Part shown: one piece after another, positions 1,286 through 62,236 of the stretch
How positions within the stretch are numbered: the first letter of the stretch is position 1
How the letters are laid out: each line of letters begins with the position of its first letter
Assembly (NCBI RefSeq): GCF_012396235.1
Contig: NZ_JAAXPA010000007.1
Location: 270,673 to 334,672, forward strand
DNA length: 64,000 nt
Source of the DNA: Rhodococcus opacus
GTDB taxonomy: Bacteria > Actinomycetota > Actinomycetes > Mycobacteriales > Mycobacteriaceae
Direction: 5' to 3'
Made by a program: the position numbers and the translations under genes
Notes under the pieces: model-generated
Databases searched by the model: none
Seen by the model: the letters and a program-made list of their open reading frames with translations, nothing else
Told to the model about the DNA's origin: nothing

Positions 1286-1633
1286 ATGAGTGCCTCGACC
1301 GAATGGGCCAAAGCTCCCGACTTCGCCGGGCAGCCTGCTCGGCTCGAGGCCATTCAAGCGCAAACGTTGGCCGACAAGGCCAATTACCTCGACGACGGCA
1401 TGAACGAAGTCGAGTGCCGTACGTGCGGAACCTGTGTGCTGGTGCGCAAGAACAGCCTCGAGCACACGAGCGTCCAGTGGACGGACGACCCTGCGAAGAC
1501 GTGCCCGACGTTCCGGGACGCCGTCGGCGAGGGACAGTCCACCGCGCTCCGCGAGGGGTGCCCGCGACTGTGGGACAGCATCAACCACGCGGTGATGGAG
1601 GGGTTCATCGACGTGCGGGATCGCGTCGAATAG
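1286..1633 (+). CDS. Conserved small Cys-rich protein linked to KshA
   Basis: This 115-residue protein starts 2 bases after the kshA stop and should be co-transcribed under KstR. Its middle carries a CRTCGTC cluster (three Cys within seven residues), and further Cys follow in KTCPTF and GCPRLW, a pattern suited to a metal or Fe-S site. There is no signal peptide or membrane segment. M. tuberculosis has an uncharacterised gene (Rv3527) in the same place beside kshA, and I take this as the likely counterpart from position, not from alignment. No function is assigned. A role in electron transfer to KshA, or in KshA maturation, is speculative. Confidence 0.75.
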   Translation: MSASTEWAKAPDFAGQPARLEAIQAQTLADKANYLDDGMNEVECRTCGTCVLVRKNSLEHTSVQWTDDPAKTCPTFRDAVGEGQSTALREGCPRLWDSINHAVMEGFIDVRDRVE

Positions 1634-1660
1634 TCGTCGGTACCGCTGCGGCGGATGCGT

Positions 1661-1711
1661 CGCCCGATGTGACATTCGTGCAGTCAGGCTGCACGAATGT
1701 CACATTGGGCG
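1661..1711. terminator. Strong hairpin after the kshA operon
   Basis: A near-perfect 23-bp stem with a 5-base loop (loop 1684-1688) follows the stop of the Cys-rich protein. The core arms are ATGTGACATTCGTGCAG (1667-1683) and its complement (1689-1705), extended by five GC pairs after a G-T wobble. There is no T-tract. It probably ends the kshA transcript or protects its 3' end. A dispersed repeat is also possible, but I see no second copy in the window. Confidence 0.6.
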
Positions 1712-1766
1712 CTTAGGCTGGATGTGCCGTCGGATCCGGCGGTTCCAGCCGAGCCGGAGGCGCGCC

Positions 1767-2144
1767 ATGACAGGCCGAATCGTGCACTTCGAGATCCCCT
1801 TCGACGACGGTGACCGCGCACGAGCGTTCTATCGGGACGCATTCGGGTGGGCCATCGCCGAGATCCCCGACATGGACTACAGCATGGTCACCACCGGACC
1901 CGTCGGTGAGAGCGGCATGCCCGACGAACCGGGTTACATCAACGGCGGCATGATGCAGCGCGGGGAAGTGACCTCTCCCGTGGTCACCGTCGACGTCGAG
2001 AGCATCGAATCCGCCCTCGAACGGATCGAATCCCTCGGTGGCAAGACCGTCACCGGCAGGACCCCCGTCGGGAACATGGGATTCGCCGCATACTTCACCG
2101 ACTCCGAGGGCAACGTCGTCGGGCTGTGGGAGACCGCCCGCTGA
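1767..2144 (+). CDS. VOC (glyoxalase/bleomycin-resistance) family protein
   Basis: A 125-residue protein of the vicinal oxygen chelate fold. The N-terminus GRIVHFEIPFDD followed by RARAFYRDAFGW is the classic first beta-alpha-beta of the family, and the end DSEGNVVGLWE is the usual last strand with a metal-ligand Glu. It has a single domain, so it would act as a dimer. The substrate is not predictable. The start ATG at 1767 follows a GGAGG-containing site. It lies between the kshA and hsa genes but has no KstR box of its own, and a steroid role is only suggested by position. It converges on hsaF, with a palindromic stop element between them. Confidence 0.85.
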   Translation: MTGRIVHFEIPFDDGDRARAFYRDAFGWAIAEIPDMDYSMVTTGPVGESGMPDEPGYINGGMMQRGEVTSPVVTVDVESIESALERIESLGGKTVTGRTPVGNMGFAAYFTDSEGNVVGLWETAR

Positions 2145-2147
2145 CCC

Positions 2148-2187
2148 GTGAGTACTTATTAACCGCGGGACGTTGATAAGTACTCAC
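2148..2187. repeat. Dispersed palindromic all-frame stop element, copy 1
   Basis: Arms GTGAGTACTTATTAAC (2148-2163) and GTTGATAAGTACTCAC (2172-2187) pair at 15 of 16 positions around the 8-base loop CGCGGGAC. It lies between the convergent VOC gene and hsaF. The hsaF stop codon (2184-2186) is inside the right arm. Copies 2 and 3 are at 32921-32970 and 62185-62236. The loop of copy 2 is the reverse complement of this one, so the element occurs in both orientations. Confidence 0.85.
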
Positions 2188-3251
2188 AGGCGCTCGCGCT
2201 GCAGTTCGAGGGCGATGTCGATGAGCTGATCTTCCTGGCCGCCGACGAGCTTGCGCTTGCCGGCGCGGACGAGGAGTTCGGCGGACGAGACGCCGTACCG
2301 TTCGGCCTGGCGTTCGGCGTGCTTGAGGAAGCTCGAGTAGACGCCGGCGTAGCCCATCATCAGCGCCTGACGGTCGAGGAGGCATTCGGCGGGCATCGCC
2401 GGACGCACCACGTCCTCGGCGGCGTCGGCGATCGCGAAGAAGTCGATCCCCGTCTTGATACCGATCTTGTCGCACACGCCGACAAACGCCTCGACCGGCG
2501 CGTTACCGGCACCGGCGCCGAATCGTCGTGTGCTGCCGTCGATCTGCTTGGCCCCTGCCCGAACGGCGGCGATCGAGTTGGCCACACCGAGTCCGAGGTT
2601 CTCGTGACCGTGGAAACCCACCTGGGCGTCCGAGCCGAGTTCCTGCACCAGCGCCTCGACGCGGTCCGACACCTGCTCGAGCACGAGCGCACCTGCGGAG
2701 TCGACGACGTACACGCACTGGCAGCCCGCGTCGGCCATGATGCGGGCCTGCTTGGCGAGCTTTTCCGGTGCGATCGAATGCGCCATCATCAGGAAGCCGA
2801 CGGTCTCGAGACCGCGGTCGCGGGCCAGCCCGAAGTGCTGGATGGACACGTCCGCCTCGGTGCAGTGCGTGGCGATGCGGCAGATCGAGGCGCCGTTGTC
2901 CTGGGCGACGATGATGTCGTCCTTGATGCCGAGCCCCGGCAGCATGAGGAAGGCGATCTTCGCGTTCTTCGCCGTGTCGACGGCGATCGAGATGAGTTCC
3001 TGCTCCGGGACCTTGGAGAACCCGTAGTTGAACGAGGACCCACCGAGTCCGTCGCCGTGCGTCACCTCGATGACCGGGACCCCGGCGTTGTCGAGCGCAC
3101 CGACGATGGCCCGGACCTCCTCACCGGTGAATTGGTGCCGCTTGTGGTGCGAACCGTCCCGCAGCGAGGTGTCGGTGACGCGGATGTCCCAACTGCTGCG
3201 CATATTTCCCGTCGCTCCGCTCGCCCCGTCGAATTGGACCATAGTGCTCAT
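2184..3251 (-). CDS. hsaF: 4-hydroxy-2-oxovalerate/oxohexanoate aldolase HsaF
   Basis: HsaF is a DmpG-type class II pyruvate aldolase. It cleaves 4-hydroxy-2-oxo acids from the steroid A/B-ring side product into pyruvate and an aldehyde that is channelled to HsaG. The 355-residue protein shows the metal and catalytic motif [12 protein letters not shown] (Arg31, Asp32) near the N-terminus, GFHGHEN (His ligands) in the middle of the TIM barrel and a C-terminal communication domain. The start ATG overlaps the hsaG stop (ATGA). It is last in the hsaE-hsaG-hsaF operon. Its stop codon lies inside the dispersed palindrome. Confidence 0.93.
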
Positions 3252-24119: not shown

Positions 24120-26239
24120 CCCGTGGGCACGTCGTATTGATCCACGGCGCCTGGGCGGGCAGCTGGGTGTGGGACACAATTCTGGAGCCGTTGCGCGACA
24201 GCGGGTACGAGCCGCACGCACTCGACCTTCCCTGCGTGGGAAACTGGCCGGACGGTGCGCGAACCGATCTGGACGCAGTGACGGATGTCGTCGTGGCGCA
24301 CATCGTTTCGCTGGACGGGCCCGTGTTCGTGGTCGGTCACTCCGGAGGCGGCATCGTGACCACCCAGGTGGCCGAGCGCCTTCCGCACCGGATCTCGGGT
24401 GTGGCGTACGTCGCCGGAATGATGCTGCCGTCGGGAAGCAACTTCGGCGACCTCTGCGCAGACCTGCGCCTACCGGAACCGGTCGGGATCTCGGCCTGGC
24501 TGCAGTCGACCCCCGACGGATCCGGGACCATCGTGCCGCCGGAAGCCGCGGCCGCCGTGTTCTTTCACGAATCGTCGGCCGGTGATGCGATCACTGCTGC
24601 TCGAAAGCTGCTGCCGCAACTCGAGACTGCACGTCTCATGGCCCCGGTGTGGACGCCGGAGCGGTTCGGCTCCGTCCCCCGCCTGTACGTGGAGGCGACG
24701 CTCGACCGTTCGGTGCCGCTCGTGACGCAGCGTGCGATGCAGGACCGGGTGCCGGGCGCGCGGGTGGTGACGTTGGACAGCGATCACGCCCCGCAACTGT
24801 CGGCGCGCGAGGCCCTGCTCGCGGCACTCGTCGACTTCTGCGCCTGCGTCGGCCCGAGACCTACCCGTGTCCGGCGGGCGCGAACCAGCCGCACTCCCGA
24901 GAACCCATGGAGGATGCGGATGCATCCCGATCTGATTTCCGATGTCACCGTCTACGCGAAGGGCCGCTGGCTGCCGCACCGCGACGTCCTGATCGCCGAC
25001 GGTCTGATCACCGAGATCCGCCCGACCGCTCCGGCACCGTCGGGGGCCACGGCGGTCGACGGTGCCGGGGCGTACCTGATCCCCGGATTCGTCAACACCC
25101 ACACCCACCTGCAGCAGTCGTTGATGCGCGGCATCGGCGAGGGGCAGCCGCTGCTCAGCTGGCTGCAGACCGTGGGTGCGGAATCCGCGGTCATCACCCC
25201 GGATCGGGCCTACCTGGCCGCGGTCGCCGCGAGCCTCGACGCCCTGCGCAGCGGCACCACGACGCTGGTCGAGCACATGTGGCCGCATCCGTCTCCGGAC
25301 GTGCACGACGCGGTGCTGCGCGCCCTGGAAGACACCGGCGTGCGGGCACTCCTCGGCCGCGGAGTGGCGGACCGCGCGGACACAACGCGCAAGTGGGGCG
25401 TCGACCCGCGCCTCCTGCAGCCGCTGCCCGGGGTGCTCGAGCACACCGACCAGCTGGTCAAGCAGGCCGACGGCACACGCGTCACGGTCGGTCTGGCCGT
25501 CCCCAACCCCCGGTCGCTGACACCGGAGGGGATGGCGGCGGTGCGGCAGTTAGCGGGCGAACGCGACATGACCGTGTCGATCCACCTGCTGGAGACCCCC
25601 ACCGACGACGTGATGTGCCGCGAACACGTCGGCGCGGGCGCGGTCGACTACCTCGACACGAACGGGTTCCTGTGGGACCGGTTGCTCGCTGTGCACTGCT
25701 GCGAACTCGACGCCCACGGGCGCGCGGTGCTGGCCCGCCGCGGTGTGGCCGTCTCGTACAACCCGATGAGCAACATGCGTCTCGGCAGCGGCGTCGCCCC
25801 CGTCCCGGAGATGCTCGAGGCGGGCATCGCGGTCGGGCTCGGCGTCGACGGCGCCGCCAGCAACGACACCCAGGACATGCTCGAAACGCTGCGCATGGGC
25901 GCCTACGTGCAGCGGGCGCATCGCAAGACGGCCGACCTGTTCGGATTCGACGCCATGATGGACCTCGCGACGAACGGCGCGAACGAGAATCTCGGTTTCG
26001 CGTCCCGCCCGAACGGTGTGGCCGTCGGCGGCACGGCCGACCTGACCCTGATCCGCTTCGAGCGCGACTTCGGTTGCCTGCCCGTCCGCGACCCGGGCGC
26101 GACACTGTTGACCACCGGGAGCCGGCAGATCGTCGACACCGTGCTGGTCGACGGCGAAGTCCTGATCCGGGACGGACACAGCACCAGGGTCGACGAAGCA
26201 GGGCTTATCGCCGAATTGACCGCCACCGGTGCGCCATAG
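24116..26239 (+). CDS. Alpha/beta hydrolase reading in frame into an amidohydrolase (707-residue frame)
   Basis: GTG 24116 overlaps the upstream stop (GTGA). The frame encodes an alpha/beta hydrolase over about residues 1-245: oxyanion motif LIHGAWAGSWVW, nucleophile in VVGHSGGG, acid in EATLDRSVP and base in DSDHAPQLS. It resembles the salicylate-esterase/hydroxynitrile-lyase branch. No stop codon follows. An Arg/Pro-rich linker (about residues 246-266) leads directly into the amidohydrolase listed separately. The product may therefore be a two-domain fusion, or the hydrolase stop was lost and the second domain is mostly made from its own ribosome site. Neither domain's substrate is known. 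Confidence 0.7.
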   Translation: MTRGHVVLIHGAWAGSWVWDTILEPLRDSGYEPHALDLPCVGNWPDGARTDLDAVTDVVVAHIVSLDGPVFVVGHSGGGIVTTQVAERLPHRISGVAYVAGMMLPSGSNFGDLCADLRLPEPVGISAWLQSTPDGSGTIVPPEAAAAVFFHESSAGDAITAARKLLPQLETARLMAPVWTPERFGSVPRLYVEATLDRSVPLVTQRAMQDRVPGARVVTLDSDHAPQLSAREALLAALVDFCACVGPRPTRVRRARTSRTPENPWRMRMHPDLISDVTVYAKGRWLPHRDVLIADGLITEIRPTAPAPSGATAVDGAGAYLIPGFVNTHTHLQQSLMRGIGEGQPLLSWLQTVGAESAVITPDRAYLAAVAASLDALRSGTTTLVEHMWPHPSPDVHDAVLRALEDTGVRALLGRGVADRADTTRKWGVDPRLLQPLPGVLEHTDQLVKQADGTRVTVGLAVPNPRSLTPEGMAAVRQLAGERDMTVSIHLLETPTDDVMCREHVGAGAVDYLDTNGFLWDRLLAVHCCELDAHGRAVLARRGVAVSYNPMSNMRLGSGVAPVPEMLEAGIAVGLGVDGAASNDTQDMLETLRMGAYVQRAHRKTADLFGFDAMMDLATNGANENLGFASRPNGVAVGGTADLTLIRFERDFGCLPVRDPGATLLTTGSRQIVDTVLVDGEVLIRDGHSTRVDEAGLIAELTATGAP
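24909..24913 (+). promoter_or_regulatory. Internal ribosome binding site GGAGG
   Basis: A consensus GGAGG lies inside the 707-codon frame, six bases before the in-frame ATG at 24920. Its spacing is ideal, so the amidohydrolase can be made separately even though no stop codon separates it from the hydrolase. Confidence 0.65.
24920..26239 (+). CDS. ATZ/TRZ-type amidohydrolase (nucleobase deaminase-like)
   Basis: From the internal ATG the protein is 439 residues, the normal length for guanine/8-oxoguanine/triazine deaminases. It shows NTHTHLQQSLMRG (HxH), SIHLLETPTDD, VHCCELD, NPMSNMRLGSG and GVDGAASNDTQDM (Asp ligand), a complete mononuclear amidohydrolase site. It probably deaminates a purine or related heterocycle feeding the urate pathway. 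It is a paralogue-like companion of the 8-oxoguanine deaminase at 28040. The frame is open upstream into an alpha/beta hydrolase. Confidence 0.8.
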   Translation: MHPDLISDVTVYAKGRWLPHRDVLIADGLITEIRPTAPAPSGATAVDGAGAYLIPGFVNTHTHLQQSLMRGIGEGQPLLSWLQTVGAESAVITPDRAYLAAVAASLDALRSGTTTLVEHMWPHPSPDVHDAVLRALEDTGVRALLGRGVADRADTTRKWGVDPRLLQPLPGVLEHTDQLVKQADGTRVTVGLAVPNPRSLTPEGMAAVRQLAGERDMTVSIHLLETPTDDVMCREHVGAGAVDYLDTNGFLWDRLLAVHCCELDAHGRAVLARRGVAVSYNPMSNMRLGSGVAPVPEMLEAGIAVGLGVDGAASNDTQDMLETLRMGAYVQRAHRKTADLFGFDAMMDLATNGANENLGFASRPNGVAVGGTADLTLIRFERDFGCLPVRDPGATLLTTGSRQIVDTVLVDGEVLIRDGHSTRVDEAGLIAELTATGAP

Positions 26240-26283
26240 TGGTAGCCAGAGGTACCGAAAAGGCGCACGAGAGAGGAGCCTTC

Positions 26284-30221: not shown

Positions 30222-32929
30222 AATTGACGGTCGACGGACAGTCGGTGGATGCCGACCCACGGCCCGGTCAGTGCCTGCGCACCTTCCTGCGGGAACAGCA
30301 GCGGTTCGCGGTCAAGAAGGGCTGCGACGCCGGCGATTGCGGCGCCTGTTCCGTACTGCTCGACGGCGCTCCGGTGCACTCGTGTGTGGTGCCGGCGCAT
30401 CGCGCCGAGAACCGTGAGGTGACCACCGCGGCCGGGCTCGGCAGTCCCGATCGACTCCACCCCGTGCAGCAGCAGTTCGTCGATGCGGCCGGCTTCCAGT
30501 GCGGGTTCTGCACACCCGGGATCGTCGTGACCGCGTCCGCGCTCGACTCCGAACAACGCGCCGACCTGCCGCGCTCACTGAAGGGGAATCTGTGCCGCTG
30601 CACCGGCTATCGCGCCATTCGCGACGCCGTCGGTGGCGTGTGCACCACCGAATCGGACAGTGCCGGTGAGTCGTTCGGCCGCTCCATTCCCGCGCCTGCC
30701 GCCACCCGGGTGGTGTGCGGCGCCGAACCCTACACCCTCGACCTGGCCGTCGAGGGCCTGACGCACATCCAGATCCTCGGCAGCCCGCACGCGCACGCCC
30801 GCATCACCCGACTCGACACGTCCGCCGCGGAGAGGCTGCCCGGCGTCCACGCGGTGCTCACCCACCGGGACAGTCCCGACGTCGCCTTCTCCACGGCCCG
30901 CCACGAGTTCCGCACCGACGACCCCGACGACACCTACGTATTCGACACGATCCTCCGGTTCCGGGGGCAGCGTGTCGCGGCCGTCGTCGCGGACTCCGTC
31001 GACATCGCCCGGCGCGCAGTGGAACTGATCGACGTGGAGTACGAAGTGCTGGAACCGGTCTTCGATCCCGACCTGGCACGCCGTCCCGGTGCACCCCTGC
31101 TGCACGGTGACAAGGGCGCCGATTCCCGGATCGCGGACCCGTCCCGGAACCTGGTGGCCGAGGTCCACGGCGAAGTCGGCGACCTCGGCGGCGGACTCGC
31201 GGTGGCGCGGGACACGGGTGCCGTGGTGGAGGGTACGTGGCAGACGCAACGCGTGCAGCACGCGCATCTCGAAACCCACTCGGCCATCGGCTGGCTCGAC
31301 TCCGACGGGCGGCTCACCCTCCGCAGCAGTACCCAGGTGCCCTTCCTCGTCCGCGACGAACTCGCCCACCTGTTCTCGCTCGACCGCTCGCAGGTCCGGG
31401 TGTTCACCGCCCGCATCGGGGGCGGCTTCGGCGCCAAGCAGGAAATGCTGGTGGAGGATCTCGTCGCTCTCGCCGTTCTGCGCACCGGCAGACCGGTGCA
31501 GTACGAGTTCACCCGCTCCGACCAGTTCACGATCGCCCCGTGCCGGCATCCCATGCGGGTGTCGGTGAAGGTCGGCGCCGACGGCGACGGAAAGCTGACG
31601 GCGCTCGCCGTCGACGTGCTCTCGGACGCCGGGGCGTACGGAAACCATTCGGTGGGCGTGATGTTCCACGGCTGCAGCGAATCCGTTGCGCTGTACCGGT
31701 CGCCGAACAAGCGGGTGGACGCCCAGGCCGTCTACACCAACAACCTGCCATCCGGGGCCTTCCGCGGCTACGGTCTGGGCCAGGTCATCTTCGCGGTGGA
31801 ATCCGCGCTCGATCAGCTGGCGACGCAGCTGGGCATCGATCCGTTCGAACTGCGCCGGCGCAACGTGGTCGTTCCGGGTGACGACTTCGTCGACTTCGAG
31901 GTGGAGCACGGCGACCTCACGTACGGCAGCTACGGACTCGACCAGTGCCTCGACCTGGCGGAGGCCGCACTGCGCCGCGGCAACGACGTGCGCCCGCCGG
32001 ACGGCCCGCAGTGGCGGGTCGGTGAGGGCATGGCGGCGTCCATGATCGCGACCATTCCGCCGCGGGGGCACTTCGCGGACGTGTCCTGCACCCTCGTCGA
32101 GGGCGGCCGGTACGAACTTCGGGTGGGCACCGCGGAGTTCGGCAACGGCACCACCACCGTGCACGCCCAGCTCGCCGCGTCCGCGCTGGGCACCACCGCC
32201 GACCGGATCACCGTGCTGCAATCCGACACCGACGTCGCCGGGCACGACACCGGCGCATTCGGTTCGGCAGGCACGGTGGTCGCGGGGAAGGCGGTACATC
32301 TTGCGGGAACCCGATTGCGGGAACAGCTGTTCGAGGTCGCCCGCCGCGTCGCGGGTGCCGCCGAGGACGCCGACTGCGCGCTGACACCCGACGCGGTCGA
32401 GGTCGCCGGACGGGTCGTCGAACTCGACAAGCTGGTGCCCGAGGGACCGATCCGCGCCGAGGGCAGGCACGACGGCACCCCCCGCTCGGTGGTCTTCAAC
32501 GTGCACGCGTTCCGGGTGGCGGTCGACACCGTCACCGGGGAGGTCCGAATCCTGCAGTCCATCCAGGCGGCGGATGCCGGCACGGTCCTCAACCCGCAGC
32601 AGTGCCGCGGGCAGGTCGAGGGCGGCGTCGCGCAGGCGATCGGCAGCGCACTGTACGAGGAGATCCTCCTCGACGGCGCCGGGACGGTGCTCAACCCGCA
32701 GCTCCGGAATTACCACATCCCGCAGCTCGTAGACGTGCCGGACACCGAGGTCTACTTCGCGGACACCTACGACGAACTGGGCCCGCACGGCGCCAAGTCG
32801 ATGAGCGAGTCCCCGTACAACCCGGTCGCCCCCGCCCTGGCCAACGCGATCGCGGACGCCACCGGTGCCCGGCTTCGTCGGATCCCGATGACCCCGGCCG
32901 CCGTCTGGCGTGCGCTCCCGCGCCCGTGA
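30218..32929 (+). CDS. Xanthine dehydrogenase, fused 2Fe-2S and molybdopterin subunit
   Basis: A 903-residue molybdenum hydroxylase. The N-terminal ferredoxin domain binds one cluster through Cys36, Cys41, Cys44 and Cys56. The helical domain binds the second through Cys95, Cys98, Cys126 and Cys128. From about residue 170 follow the Mo-binding domains, with RIGGGFGAKQE, SGAFRGYGLGQ and the probable catalytic Glu in AKSMSESPYNP. The enzyme oxidises hypoxanthine/xanthine to urate. The fusion of the small subunit to the large one, with a separate FAD subunit, is not the commonest layout. Its stop codon is inside the dispersed palindrome. No XdhC chaperone is nearby. Confidence 0.93.
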   Translation: MKLTVDGQSVDADPRPGQCLRTFLREQQRFAVKKGCDAGDCGACSVLLDGAPVHSCVVPAHRAENREVTTAAGLGSPDRLHPVQQQFVDAAGFQCGFCTPGIVVTASALDSEQRADLPRSLKGNLCRCTGYRAIRDAVGGVCTTESDSAGESFGRSIPAPAATRVVCGAEPYTLDLAVEGLTHIQILGSPHAHARITRLDTSAAERLPGVHAVLTHRDSPDVAFSTARHEFRTDDPDDTYVFDTILRFRGQRVAAVVADSVDIARRAVELIDVEYEVLEPVFDPDLARRPGAPLLHGDKGADSRIADPSRNLVAEVHGEVGDLGGGLAVARDTGAVVEGTWQTQRVQHAHLETHSAIGWLDSDGRLTLRSSTQVPFLVRDELAHLFSLDRSQVRVFTARIGGGFGAKQEMLVEDLVALAVLRTGRPVQYEFTRSDQFTIAPCRHPMRVSVKVGADGDGKLTALAVDVLSDAGAYGNHSVGVMFHGCSESVALYRSPNKRVDAQAVYTNNLPSGAFRGYGLGQVIFAVESALDQLATQLGIDPFELRRRNVVVPGDDFVDFEVEHGDLTYGSYGLDQCLDLAEAALRRGNDVRPPDGPQWRVGEGMAASMIATIPPRGHFADVSCTLVEGGRYELRVGTAEFGNGTTTVHAQLAASALGTTADRITVLQSDTDVAGHDTGAFGSAGTVVAGKAVHLAGTRLREQLFEVARRVAGAAEDADCALTPDAVEVAGRVVELDKLVPEGPIRAEGRHDGTPRSVVFNVHAFRVAVDTVTGEVRILQSIQAADAGTVLNPQQCRGQVEGGVAQAIGSALYEEILLDGAGTVLNPQLRNYHIPQLVDVPDTEVYFADTYDELGPHGAKSMSESPYNPVAPALANAIADATGARLRRIPMTPAAVWRALPRP

Positions 32930-32970
32930 GTACTTATTAACGTCCCGCGGTTAATAAGTACTCACGGGCG
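32921..32970. repeat. Dispersed palindromic all-frame stop element, copy 2
   Basis: Perfect 21-bp arms (32921-32941 and 32950-32970) around the loop GTCCCGCG. The core arm GTGAGTACTTATTAAC is as in copy 1. The xanthine dehydrogenase stop (TGA 32927-32929) is in the left arm and the Nudix stop (32962-32964) is in the right arm. Both proteins end in Arg-Pro encoded by the element's flank. Confidence 0.9.
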
Positions 32971-33426
32971 CCGAAGGCGCAAGGCTCTTACTATCGGACG
33001 CTGCCCCTTGACCAGCTTCGTCTCGGCGACGCTCGCCGGGAACCAGCGGGCGTCGTCGACCTCGGGGAACTGCTGAAACTTCCCCGACCGCGGCGGCCAC
33101 TCCAGCTCGAACGTGTTGCTCTCGACGAACGTGACGTCCTCGCTCACCTCCGCCGCATAGACGGTGATCAGCTTGCGTGAGGGCTGCCGGAATTCGCCGA
33201 GTAACTCGTACTCGACGGCAGGCGGCGGCGCGCCGATCTCTTCCTCGAATTCGCGCAGCGCGGCCGCGTAGGGATCCTCGCCCTCGGCGTATTCCCCCTT
33301 GGGGATCGACCACGCGGCCTCGTCCTTGCGCGCCCAGAACGGGCCGCCCATGTGCACGAGCCACAACTGGAGCACTCCCGCATCGTCGGTGCGATACAGG
33401 AGTACTCCAGCGCTGGTGACGGTCAT
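32962..33426 (-). CDS. Nudix hydrolase
   Basis: A 154-residue Nudix hydrolase with a complete box (Gly-x5-Glu-x7-Arg-Glu-Phe-Glu-Glu-Glu-x-Gly, from GEYAEGEDPY to REFEEEIG) near residues 44-66. PKGEYAEGE resembles the group that acts on diadenosine polyphosphates or NUDIX pyrophosphates. The substrate is not predictable. It is preceded by ndh with a 9-base gap and is probably co-transcribed. Its stop lies in the dispersed palindrome. Confidence 0.92.
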   Translation of the reverse strand: MTVTSAGVLLYRTDDAGVLQLWLVHMGGPFWARKDEAAWSIPKGEYAEGEDPYAAALREFEEEIGAPPPAVEYELLGEFRQPSRKLITVYAAEVSEDVTFVESNTFELEWPPRSGKFQQFPEVDDARWFPASVAETKLVKGQRPIVRALRLRRP

Positions 33427-38586: not shown

Positions 38587-38622
38587 CCCCCGGGACGAAC
38601 CGGACGCTCGTTCGATCTGACG

Positions 38623-38639
38623 CAACGGGCGTCCCGTTG
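38623..38639. terminator. Hairpin between mocA and exporter genes
   Basis: CAACGGG-CGT-CCCGTTG: a 7-bp stem with a 3-base loop, in the 64-base gap between convergent genes. There is no clear T-tract. Confidence 0.45.
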
Positions 38640-38650
38640 GTCCGGCACCT

Positions 38651-61585: not shown

Positions 61586-62205
61586 TGCGCATCCTCGACG
61601 TCGGAGAAAGCGCGGTCCTCGCCGAGTTCGAGGATCTCGGCACCGTGCTCGCGCATTTTCGTGCGCTGGACGGCTCTCGGCCACCCGGGGTCGTGGAGGT
61701 GATTCCGGCGGCGCGCACCATCCTGGTGCGGTTCGACCACGGCGCGACCAGCCGTGACCGCGTCGCCAAGTGGGTGCGGACCACGGAATCGGAGGCGACG
61801 GTCGCCGAGGATGCGCCCGACGAGATCCGGATAGACGTGCGCTACGACGGTCCCGACTTGGAGGACGTGGCCGAGCTGACCGGTCTCGGTGTCGACGGCG
61901 TCGTCGCTGCACACACCGGAACTCCGTGGACGGTGGCGTTCTGCGGCTTCGCACCGGGTTTCGGTTACCTCACCGGCGGCGCACCCGAACTGCACGTGCC
62001 GCGCCGGTCGACGCCTCGGACGTCCGTCCCCGCCGGGACCGTGGCTCTGGGCGGGGAGTTCACGGGAATCTATCCCCGCAGCTCGCCCGGCGGGTGGCAA
62101 CTCATCGGCACCACCGACGAACCGATCTGGGATGCCGAACGCACTCCCCCCGCCCTGCTCCGCCCCGGCGTCGTCGTGCGCTTCGCGCCCGTGAGTACTT
62201 ATTAA
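61585..62205 (+). CDS. pxpB: 5-oxoprolinase subunit PxpB (KipI family), with palindrome-encoded tail
   Basis: A 206-residue KipI/allophanate hydrolase subunit 1 protein: [31 protein letters not shown] and RTSVPAGTVALGGEFTGIYP are diagnostic. Its last residues (PVSTY) are encoded by the left arm of the dispersed palindrome, and the TAA stop (62203-62205) is within the arm. The partner gene pxpC, usually next to pxpB, is not present here. Insertion of the palindrome may have truncated the 3' end and removed or displaced pxpC. Confidence 0.9.
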   Translation: MRILDVGESAVLAEFEDLGTVLAHFRALDGSRPPGVVEVIPAARTILVRFDHGATSRDRVAKWVRTTESEATVAEDAPDEIRIDVRYDGPDLEDVAELTGLGVDGVVAAHTGTPWTVAFCGFAPGFGYLTGGAPELHVPRRSTPRTSVPAGTVALGGEFTGIYPRSSPGGWQLIGTTDEPIWDAERTPPALLRPGVVVRFAPVSTY

Positions 62206-62236
62206 CCGCCCGACGTTAATAAGTACTCACGGGCGC
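62185..62236. repeat. Dispersed palindromic all-frame stop element, copy 3
   Basis: Perfect 22-bp arms (62185-62206 and 62215-62236) around the loop CGCCCGAC. It encodes the PVSTY-stop ends of both flanking frames: pxpB on the plus strand and the 39-residue ORF on the minus strand. Confidence 0.9.

Follow-up and report, generated by a model that had tools for sequence, protein, structure and literature searches.

The window considered here, a stretch of 64,000 nucleotides of Rhodococcus opacus DNA (contig NZ_JAAXPA010000007.1, positions 270,673 to 334,672), carries three copies of a 40-bp palindrome, to which no strand can be assigned, read directly from the sequence at 2148..2187 (copy 1, also recovered by an arm search of the window), 32926..32965 (copy 2) and 62191..62230 (copy 3). 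By gene calls all three lie between converging genes, as a sequence-only reading of the window had proposed: copy 1 between a VOC/glyoxalase gene ending at 2144 and an HMGL/DmpG aldolase gene ending at 2184; copy 2 between a molybdopterin dehydrogenase gene ending at 32929 and a NUDIX gene ending at 32962; and copy 3 between a CT_C_D carboxyltransferase gene ending at 62205 and a short minus-strand ORF ending at 62216, beyond which lies a minus-strand aminotransferase gene. Five of the six flanking frames stop inside the element, again as proposed, the sixth being the VOC gene with its stop at 2144; the 39-residue version of the short ORF beside copy 3 starts at an internal ATG of the frame ending at 62216. 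The common arm and 8-base loop described in that reading are present in all three copies, the longer arms it gave to copies 2 and 3 (21-22 bp) are recovered as complementary arms of 22-27 bases, and the loops of copies 1 and 2 are reverse complements of each other. Its statement that all six reading frames are stopped holds for copies 2 and 3 and fails for copy 1, where one minus-strand frame has no stop. A chance origin was rejected by two kinds of shuffling: the 16-base arm has six matches in the window (five of them exact and the sixth with a single mismatch) with none expected from 100 shuffles, and palindromes with perfect 16-base arms occur in eight loop registers in the real window and in none of five windows in which two-base blocks had been moved. 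When folded as RNA, the window copies give z-scores of -4.4 to -8.0 on both strands. An imperfect 40-bp palindrome with ends GTGCG/CGCAC, likewise unstranded and by eye of the C type described below, lies at a tandem gene junction at 26229..26268 and is identical in the related genome G005.

Beyond the window, the pattern GAGTACTT-N(10-32)-AAGTACTC, which defines what is here called subfamily A, is matched exactly at 80 places in the assembly of the same genome (8.1 Mb in 109 contigs) and its reversed control at none, bearing out the genome-wide excess of copies that had been anticipated. Within the genus, 12 of 28 genomes contain the pattern, ten with 29-90 copies and two with 1-2, and 16 have none. 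The anatomy of the unit was read from 77 own copies with flanks, of which 76 are 40 bp long and one is 44 bp; longer units, of which this is the only one in the genome, make up three of 75 in G005 and four of 29 in G027. The pattern itself fixes GAGTACTT and AAGTACTC, so conservation of those sixteen positions is not judgeable from this set; positions 1-2, 39-40, 12, 14-16 and 25-27 are invariant in 76 of 76 copies and position 29 in 75, and variation is found at positions 11 and 13, at their partners and in the loop. Pairing is kept at position 11 in 42 of 76 copies and at position 13 in 57, where independent arms would give 30 and 48, a modest covariation (p 0.004 and 0.007). The flank beside the unit is mostly CC[C/T], before GTGAG, and the predicted RNA energy of the 46-nt unit has a median of -31 kcal/mol. 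Arms with at most two mismatches number 86 and 85 on the two strands of the 8.1 Mb; among the 100 arm matches listed, all with no or one mismatch, four differ within GTGAGTACTT; and in the fetched loci, which overlap one another, unpaired arms number 7 and paired arms 391. A known RNA family was rejected, with no Rfam match at gathering score in 88 kb comprising the window and loci L113, L121 and L133.

Many own copies carry a mini-hairpin just outside the unit. Beside copy 2 these are TGCGCTCCCGCGC (32911..32923, plus strand) and, on the other side, TGCGCCTTCGGCGC (32968..32981, minus strand), and beside copy 3 TGCGCTTCGCGC (62177..62188, plus strand); the first and third are of a type that stands beside 40-bp units in 12 of 15 cases and the second of a type that does so in four of five. 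Over 814 kb, 11 of 12 matches to TGCG[CG]CTNCG[CG]CGC and 12 of 15 to TGCGCTNNCGCGC fall within 8 bases of a 40-bp unit, against an expected adjacency of 0.3% at that unit density. Small flank hairpins were counted in 70 of 154 cases in the own genome (37 in shuffles) and in 45 of 149 in other genera (35 in shuffles). At the copy-1 site, G004, G006 and G009 have a GC stretch of the mini-hairpin kind, which G000, G005, G026, G008, G027, G010 and G024 lack. In the flanks in L065-L104, TGCGNCTNCGNCGC-type mini-hairpins occur almost only beside 40-bp units, several with a TGA stop in the loop.

Genes were called with a simple coding-model caller trained on the same DNA. Among the 77 own copies, 40 are convergent, 29 tandem and five apparently divergent, two lie inside long frames and one is without two neighbours, such that 74 of 76 placeable copies are intergenic. 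Set against 738 background junctions (138 convergent, 469 tandem, 131 divergent) drawn from the window together with 40 fetched loci, the expected enrichment between convergent genes is clear (40/74 copies vs 138/738 junctions, p about 1e-11), and rather than an even spread through genes and divergent promoters, a gene 3' end is found within 25 bp of the unit in 68 of the 74 placeable intergenic copies. Tandem spacers have a median of 94 bp with a unit, whose core takes up 36 bp, against 30 bp without; where at least 60 bp of spacer is free, 12 of 13 tandem copies stand no more than 25 bp from where the upstream gene ends. For one tandem copy this distance is 462 bp, and only poorly scoring short ORFs could turn the five divergent copies into gene ends. 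In the loci examined, subfamily A is present at 35 of the 138 convergent junctions; as these loci were chosen around it, the share is an upper estimate for the genome. Related units in other genera behave alike: 47 of 68 placeable copies are convergent, 19 tandem and two divergent (background 113/534 convergent), with four further copies inside frames and three lacking a neighbour.

The sequence-only reading had taken the element for a combined transcript end and translation stop, and had seen in the constant loop a means of keeping all six frames closed. The first half of that combination gains from the gene-end position and convergent bias; the second does not survive comparison. That the unit is kept as a universal stop in which all six frames end is a suggestion with some appeal, given that the stop codon falls within the unit for 54 of 109 facing gene ends and that two of three window copies close every frame; six-frame stops nevertheless occur in 48 of 76 own copies and in only one of 75 copies in other genera, which goes against a conserved function, and copy 1 itself leaves a minus-strand frame open. 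Six-frame stopping was accordingly dropped as the function, and is now a very improbable explanation.

Comparison of orthologous sites indicates that most copies have been passed down in place: 51 of 65 units in the relative G005 pair on both flanks with one of the 77 own units (genome G000), at a mean flank identity of 95.6%, whilst the 14 G005 and 26 G000 units left unpaired, partly because neither set is complete, give no turnover rate. Over the 51 pairs there are no changes at positions 12, 14-16, 25 and 26, three at position 27 and one at position 29, as against 21, 24, 13 and 14 at positions 11, 30, 13 and 28; over its first six bases the near flank differs in 0-8 pairs per position. Judged from sequence comparison, interior arms that stay frozen whilst positions 11 and 30 change this often point to a sequence that is read, and not to pairing alone. 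The loop is exactly inverted in eight of the 51 pairs (seven by a swap of the central GG/CC, one by changing six bases), and an inverted interior fits better in 12; insertion in either orientation, once offered for the opposite loops of copies 1 and 2, is thus unnecessary, the loop having been inverted at the same orthologous site. Mismatches per orthologous pair average 2.5 against 4.3 in random pairs, which fits both replacement of the whole element and change in place.

The copy-1 site holds the unit in eight other species (in G027 with one arm change), a changed and still mostly paired version in G024, and in G025 an unrelated palindrome with 25-base arms; in G007 and G014 it holds no recognisable unit. 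The palindrome held by a site can differ from species to species, and at the copy-1 junction it is as if long palindromes were interchangeable. Both other window copies are present in G005, copy 2 split at its centre by an insertion; in G009, where 1.6 kb differs, copy 2 is not judgeable. Three sites in L066 are occupied in 8, 4 and 4 family-positive relatives, these being all with both flanks alignable, and one of these units is split by an insertion. Present-day mobility of the kind implied by a selfish repeat was not observed within the genus: every flank-alignable family-positive relative is occupied at each of five sites, counting the split unit. A mobile past is possible. G000 and G009 have a unit at site L097:9176, which is empty in G024 and G007. 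In other genera four sites are common to species of one genus, the interiors being clearly different at two of them, and one Saccharopolyspora oryzae site has a unit that S. indica is without. In G005, whose genome is listed as 9.7 Mb, the GG-centred units (64 of 75) all fall between 1.05 and 6.51 Mb of a 7.80-Mb contig, and the other replicons have no copy (64 of 64 listed copies are on the main contig).

An insertion interrupts one unit in G026 and one in G005, in each case at the centre of symmetry; AACCGCCGGACGTT and CCGG (14-bp and 4-bp repeats) are repeated either side of the respective insertion. Together with the loop inversions, centred insertions of this kind would fit extrusion of a DNA palindrome. 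The two insertions, about 1.4 and 1.8 kb long and unrelated-looking (L202 8049-9458; L304, minus strand from 9215), may be IS481-like and IS1182-like.

Two own copies lie in frame in long NRPS-like genes (L095 9233-9272 and L065 8999-9038), in both of which adenylation motifs were recognised by eye; a plasmid relative of one of these frames is annotated NRPS, and VSTYQP is the linker start that the copies encode. Rhodococcus plasmid pDK1 (L181) has a worn version of the L065 copy. At the L095 site the unit is in frame in ten species including the own, with one arm change in G008 and G009, and in G007, G014, G018 and G024 there is a linker of the same length, which by eye is B-like in G018 and mixed C/A-like in G024. 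These same-length linkers favour a change of subfamily in place, and they argue against a pure terminator, as do the two in-gene copies themselves and the keeping of one in ten species. Palindromic elements of the Rickettsia RPE type are inserted in frame into genes; the corresponding contrast of an inserted unit with an empty relative was not found at L095, one of the two in-gene sites and the one that the comparison covers. Within an in-gene copy, two of nine fixed-class columns at third codon positions are variable, few as these are, compared with 21 of 47 and 26 of 50 in its flanks.

Subfamily A is one of several in a patchily distributed superfamily, whose palindromes are mostly 40 bp long, have GTGMG/CKCAC ends and occur chiefly at the 3' ends of genes in a number of Mycobacteriales lineages. 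Hairpins of the form GTG[AC]G...C[TG]CAC and 30-55 bp number 89 in 814 kb; 63 belong to subfamily A, and of the remaining 26, 21 are 40 bp, whilst the same scan with six control pentamer pairs returns 5-25 matches of any length. Most of the 21 were assigned by eye to B (GTGAGTGGTTGACGAGTC...), C (GTGCGCCTTTCTGGTAGC...) or D (GTGAGTGGCGAAGCGTCC...). The 587 kb examined from other genera hold 25 such hairpins lacking A ends, and 12 of them measure 40 bp. The pattern GTGAGNNCTT-N(12-28)-AAGNNCTCAC occurs in 13 of 397 genomes of the order, and among 21 matches listed outside the own genus 14 are 40 bp and the others 34-45. A scan of 84,980 species genomes, a collection that may omit records near the window's genome, returned 75 stretches with A ends and another interior in 20 genomes, from Saccharopolyspora, Actinomycetospora, Kibdelosporangium, Actinocrispum, Pseudonocardiaceae (a MAG) and Rhodococcus or Rhodococcoides. 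The generic pattern CCYGTGMG-N(20-40)-CKCACRGG has at least one match in 225 of 397 genomes of the order, yet only 11 reach at least nine matches and at least four times their own control (matches/control 139/3 in the own genome, then 138/1, 66/2, 53/0, 52/1, 34/1, 32/6, 17/4, 16/1, 15/0 and 9/1); one genome has no match against 21 in the control, and most genomes of the order are without the superfamily. Tandem 57-bp repeats that match the generic pattern (CCTGTGAGCGGAGCGAAC...) on contig C121 of G233, positions 34-196, look unrelated. Spread by phages or plasmids was rejected: the GTGAGNNCTT pattern found one AT-rich stretch in the viral collection, one query had no match in phages, and plasmids gave four weak records for one query and one for another.

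Such a distribution invites comparison with the REP/BIME elements of Enterobacteria and Pseudomonas, short palindromes dispersed in tens to hundreds of copies, which stand at gene ends, are often composite, have a linked Y1/RAYT transposase and carry a conserved GTAG/GGAG tetranucleotide beside the stem. The likeness lies in a short extragenic palindrome with many copies; the differences are a mostly fixed length of 40 bp, GTGMG/CKCAC ends, a strong convergent bias and other flanks, the CC[C/T] before GTGAG standing where the tetranucleotide would be. A non-autonomous repeat of this sort would have been spread by a transposase-like enzyme recognising the GTGMG/CKCAC ends, would have survived at gene ends where it does little harm, and would now consist mostly of fixed relics. 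Several homogeneous subfamilies in one genome, the 11 of 397 genomes clearly above control, the companion mini-hairpin, the in-gene copies, and the sites occupied in some species and empty in others (G000 and G009 against G024 and G007; the Saccharopolyspora pair) all fit such a history, which is less easily reconciled with five sites carrying the unit in all alignable family-positive relatives, with arms that do not decay within the clade, with the lack of copies on other G005 replicons and the few plasmid matches, and with a position beside the stop codon even in long tandem spacers. On this balance a REP-like origin is a serious rival, though an unlikely one.

A further possibility is that the duplex itself is the target, its arms bound by a chromosome-organising or transcription-insulating protein, with gene ends merely tolerating such sites. 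Frozen interior arms with weak covariation at the variable positions would be expected of such a site, as would an in-gene copy kept in ten species and the confinement of copies to the middle 70% of the main contig in G005. Subfamily A, moreover, shares its nine outermost bases at either end with the Escherichia coli SlmA site GTGAGTACTCAC, which also has tens of copies per chromosome; in the part of that account drawn on here, however, SlmA sites are contiguous, 12 bp long and mainly in coding regions, whereas the halves here stand at the ends of a 40-bp unit at gene ends (PMC3116907). The other subfamilies lack the SlmA likeness, and such a role does not call for the tight coupling to stop codons, leaving a DNA-level site rather improbable.

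The reading we prefer, with confidence evenly balanced, is that the palindrome is a non-canonical two-way end-of-transcript element whose arms are read by a predicted sequence-specific factor. It is supported because the units sit at gene ends, are biased to convergent junctions and can be exchanged for another palindrome, and the rivals stay alive because of the in-gene copies and the patchiness. The same hairpin would form in RNA from either strand and could halt or protect both converging transcripts, with an arm-recognising protein probably taking part; such a helper is likely because no U-tract follows the hairpin and the arms are frozen. Canonical bidirectional intrinsic terminators likewise place a stable hairpin between convergent genes, but here the stem sequence is conserved and none of 154 sides has five or more T in 8 bases. 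Against a transcript-end role speak this lack of a U-tract, a terminator scan of window positions 1400-2600 around copy 1 that returned no terminator-like site, the five divergent-looking copies and the distant tandem copy, pairing only modestly kept at positions 11 and 13, the absence of the superfamily from most genomes of the order, and a sense hairpin that is not clearly favoured in tandem copies (more stable than that of the other strand in 12, less stable in nine, equal in the rest).

Precedents exist in other lineages. Paired DNA uptake sequences act as terminators in Neisseria and Pasteurellaceae, and in the portion of that study available they too are sequence-conserved inverted pairs enriched tail-to-tail, differing in that they number about 1,000 or more and also occur singly, whereas here there are about 85 arms per strand, almost never single (PMC1852404). 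An uptake signal was rejected on those arm counts and on the ratio of unpaired to paired arms. Bradyrhizobium japonicum has 52 copies of GAATCCAT-N23-ATGGATTC, a spaced palindromic motif pair that is similarly dispersed, near gene 3' ends or between convergent genes, and of unknown function; its sequences and taxa are different, and the excerpt available describes no 40-bp superfamily or subfamily change at one site (PMC5217627). The 16-base arm was not found in the literature searched, which takes in few subscription papers, and the repeat is not described among the matches listed for palindromes, inverted repeats or intrinsic terminators of Rhodococcus, Mycobacterium, actinobacteria or Saccharopolyspora. 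PMC13155455 gave no match for the terms searched, and the genome table in the accessible part of PMC2267715 has Mycobacterium and Corynebacterium and no Rhodococcus.

Extending the two-way transcript end beyond subfamily A yields a tentative and rather doubtful picture, in which dedicated machinery would read 40-bp GTGMG/CKCAC units at transcript ends across part of Mycobacteriales. The subfamilies would be dialects that replace one another at standing sites, lineage by lineage and even where the site is a coding linker, and the unit would be at once terminator, recognition site and replaceable cassette. High-GC actinobacteria have few textbook terminators, and how transcripts end between their converging genes is poorly settled; the palindrome is a concrete candidate, and a handle for finding the factor that reads its arms. 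With frozen and fast positions in one unit, loop inversions, and subfamily change at one site, it is also a good system for studying how dispersed palindromes evolve.

Convergent junctions without subfamily A show other long palindromes. A second kind, with core ATGTGACATT/AATGTCACAT, lies at 1661-1711 of the window, where it is kept in G005 and G007, and at L318 5075-5127, L321 19246-19302, L090 18841 and L075 13107; its arms reach 25 bases in G025, where it stands at the copy-1 junction. A third kind, built around GAACGGGACGCTCGTT...AACGAGCGTCCCGTT and with roughly 11 bases in its loop, is found at 38593-38643 of the window and at L285 6762, L290 16542, L302 1891, L310 4414 and L304 3251, and marks gene ends in G000, G005, G009 and G024.
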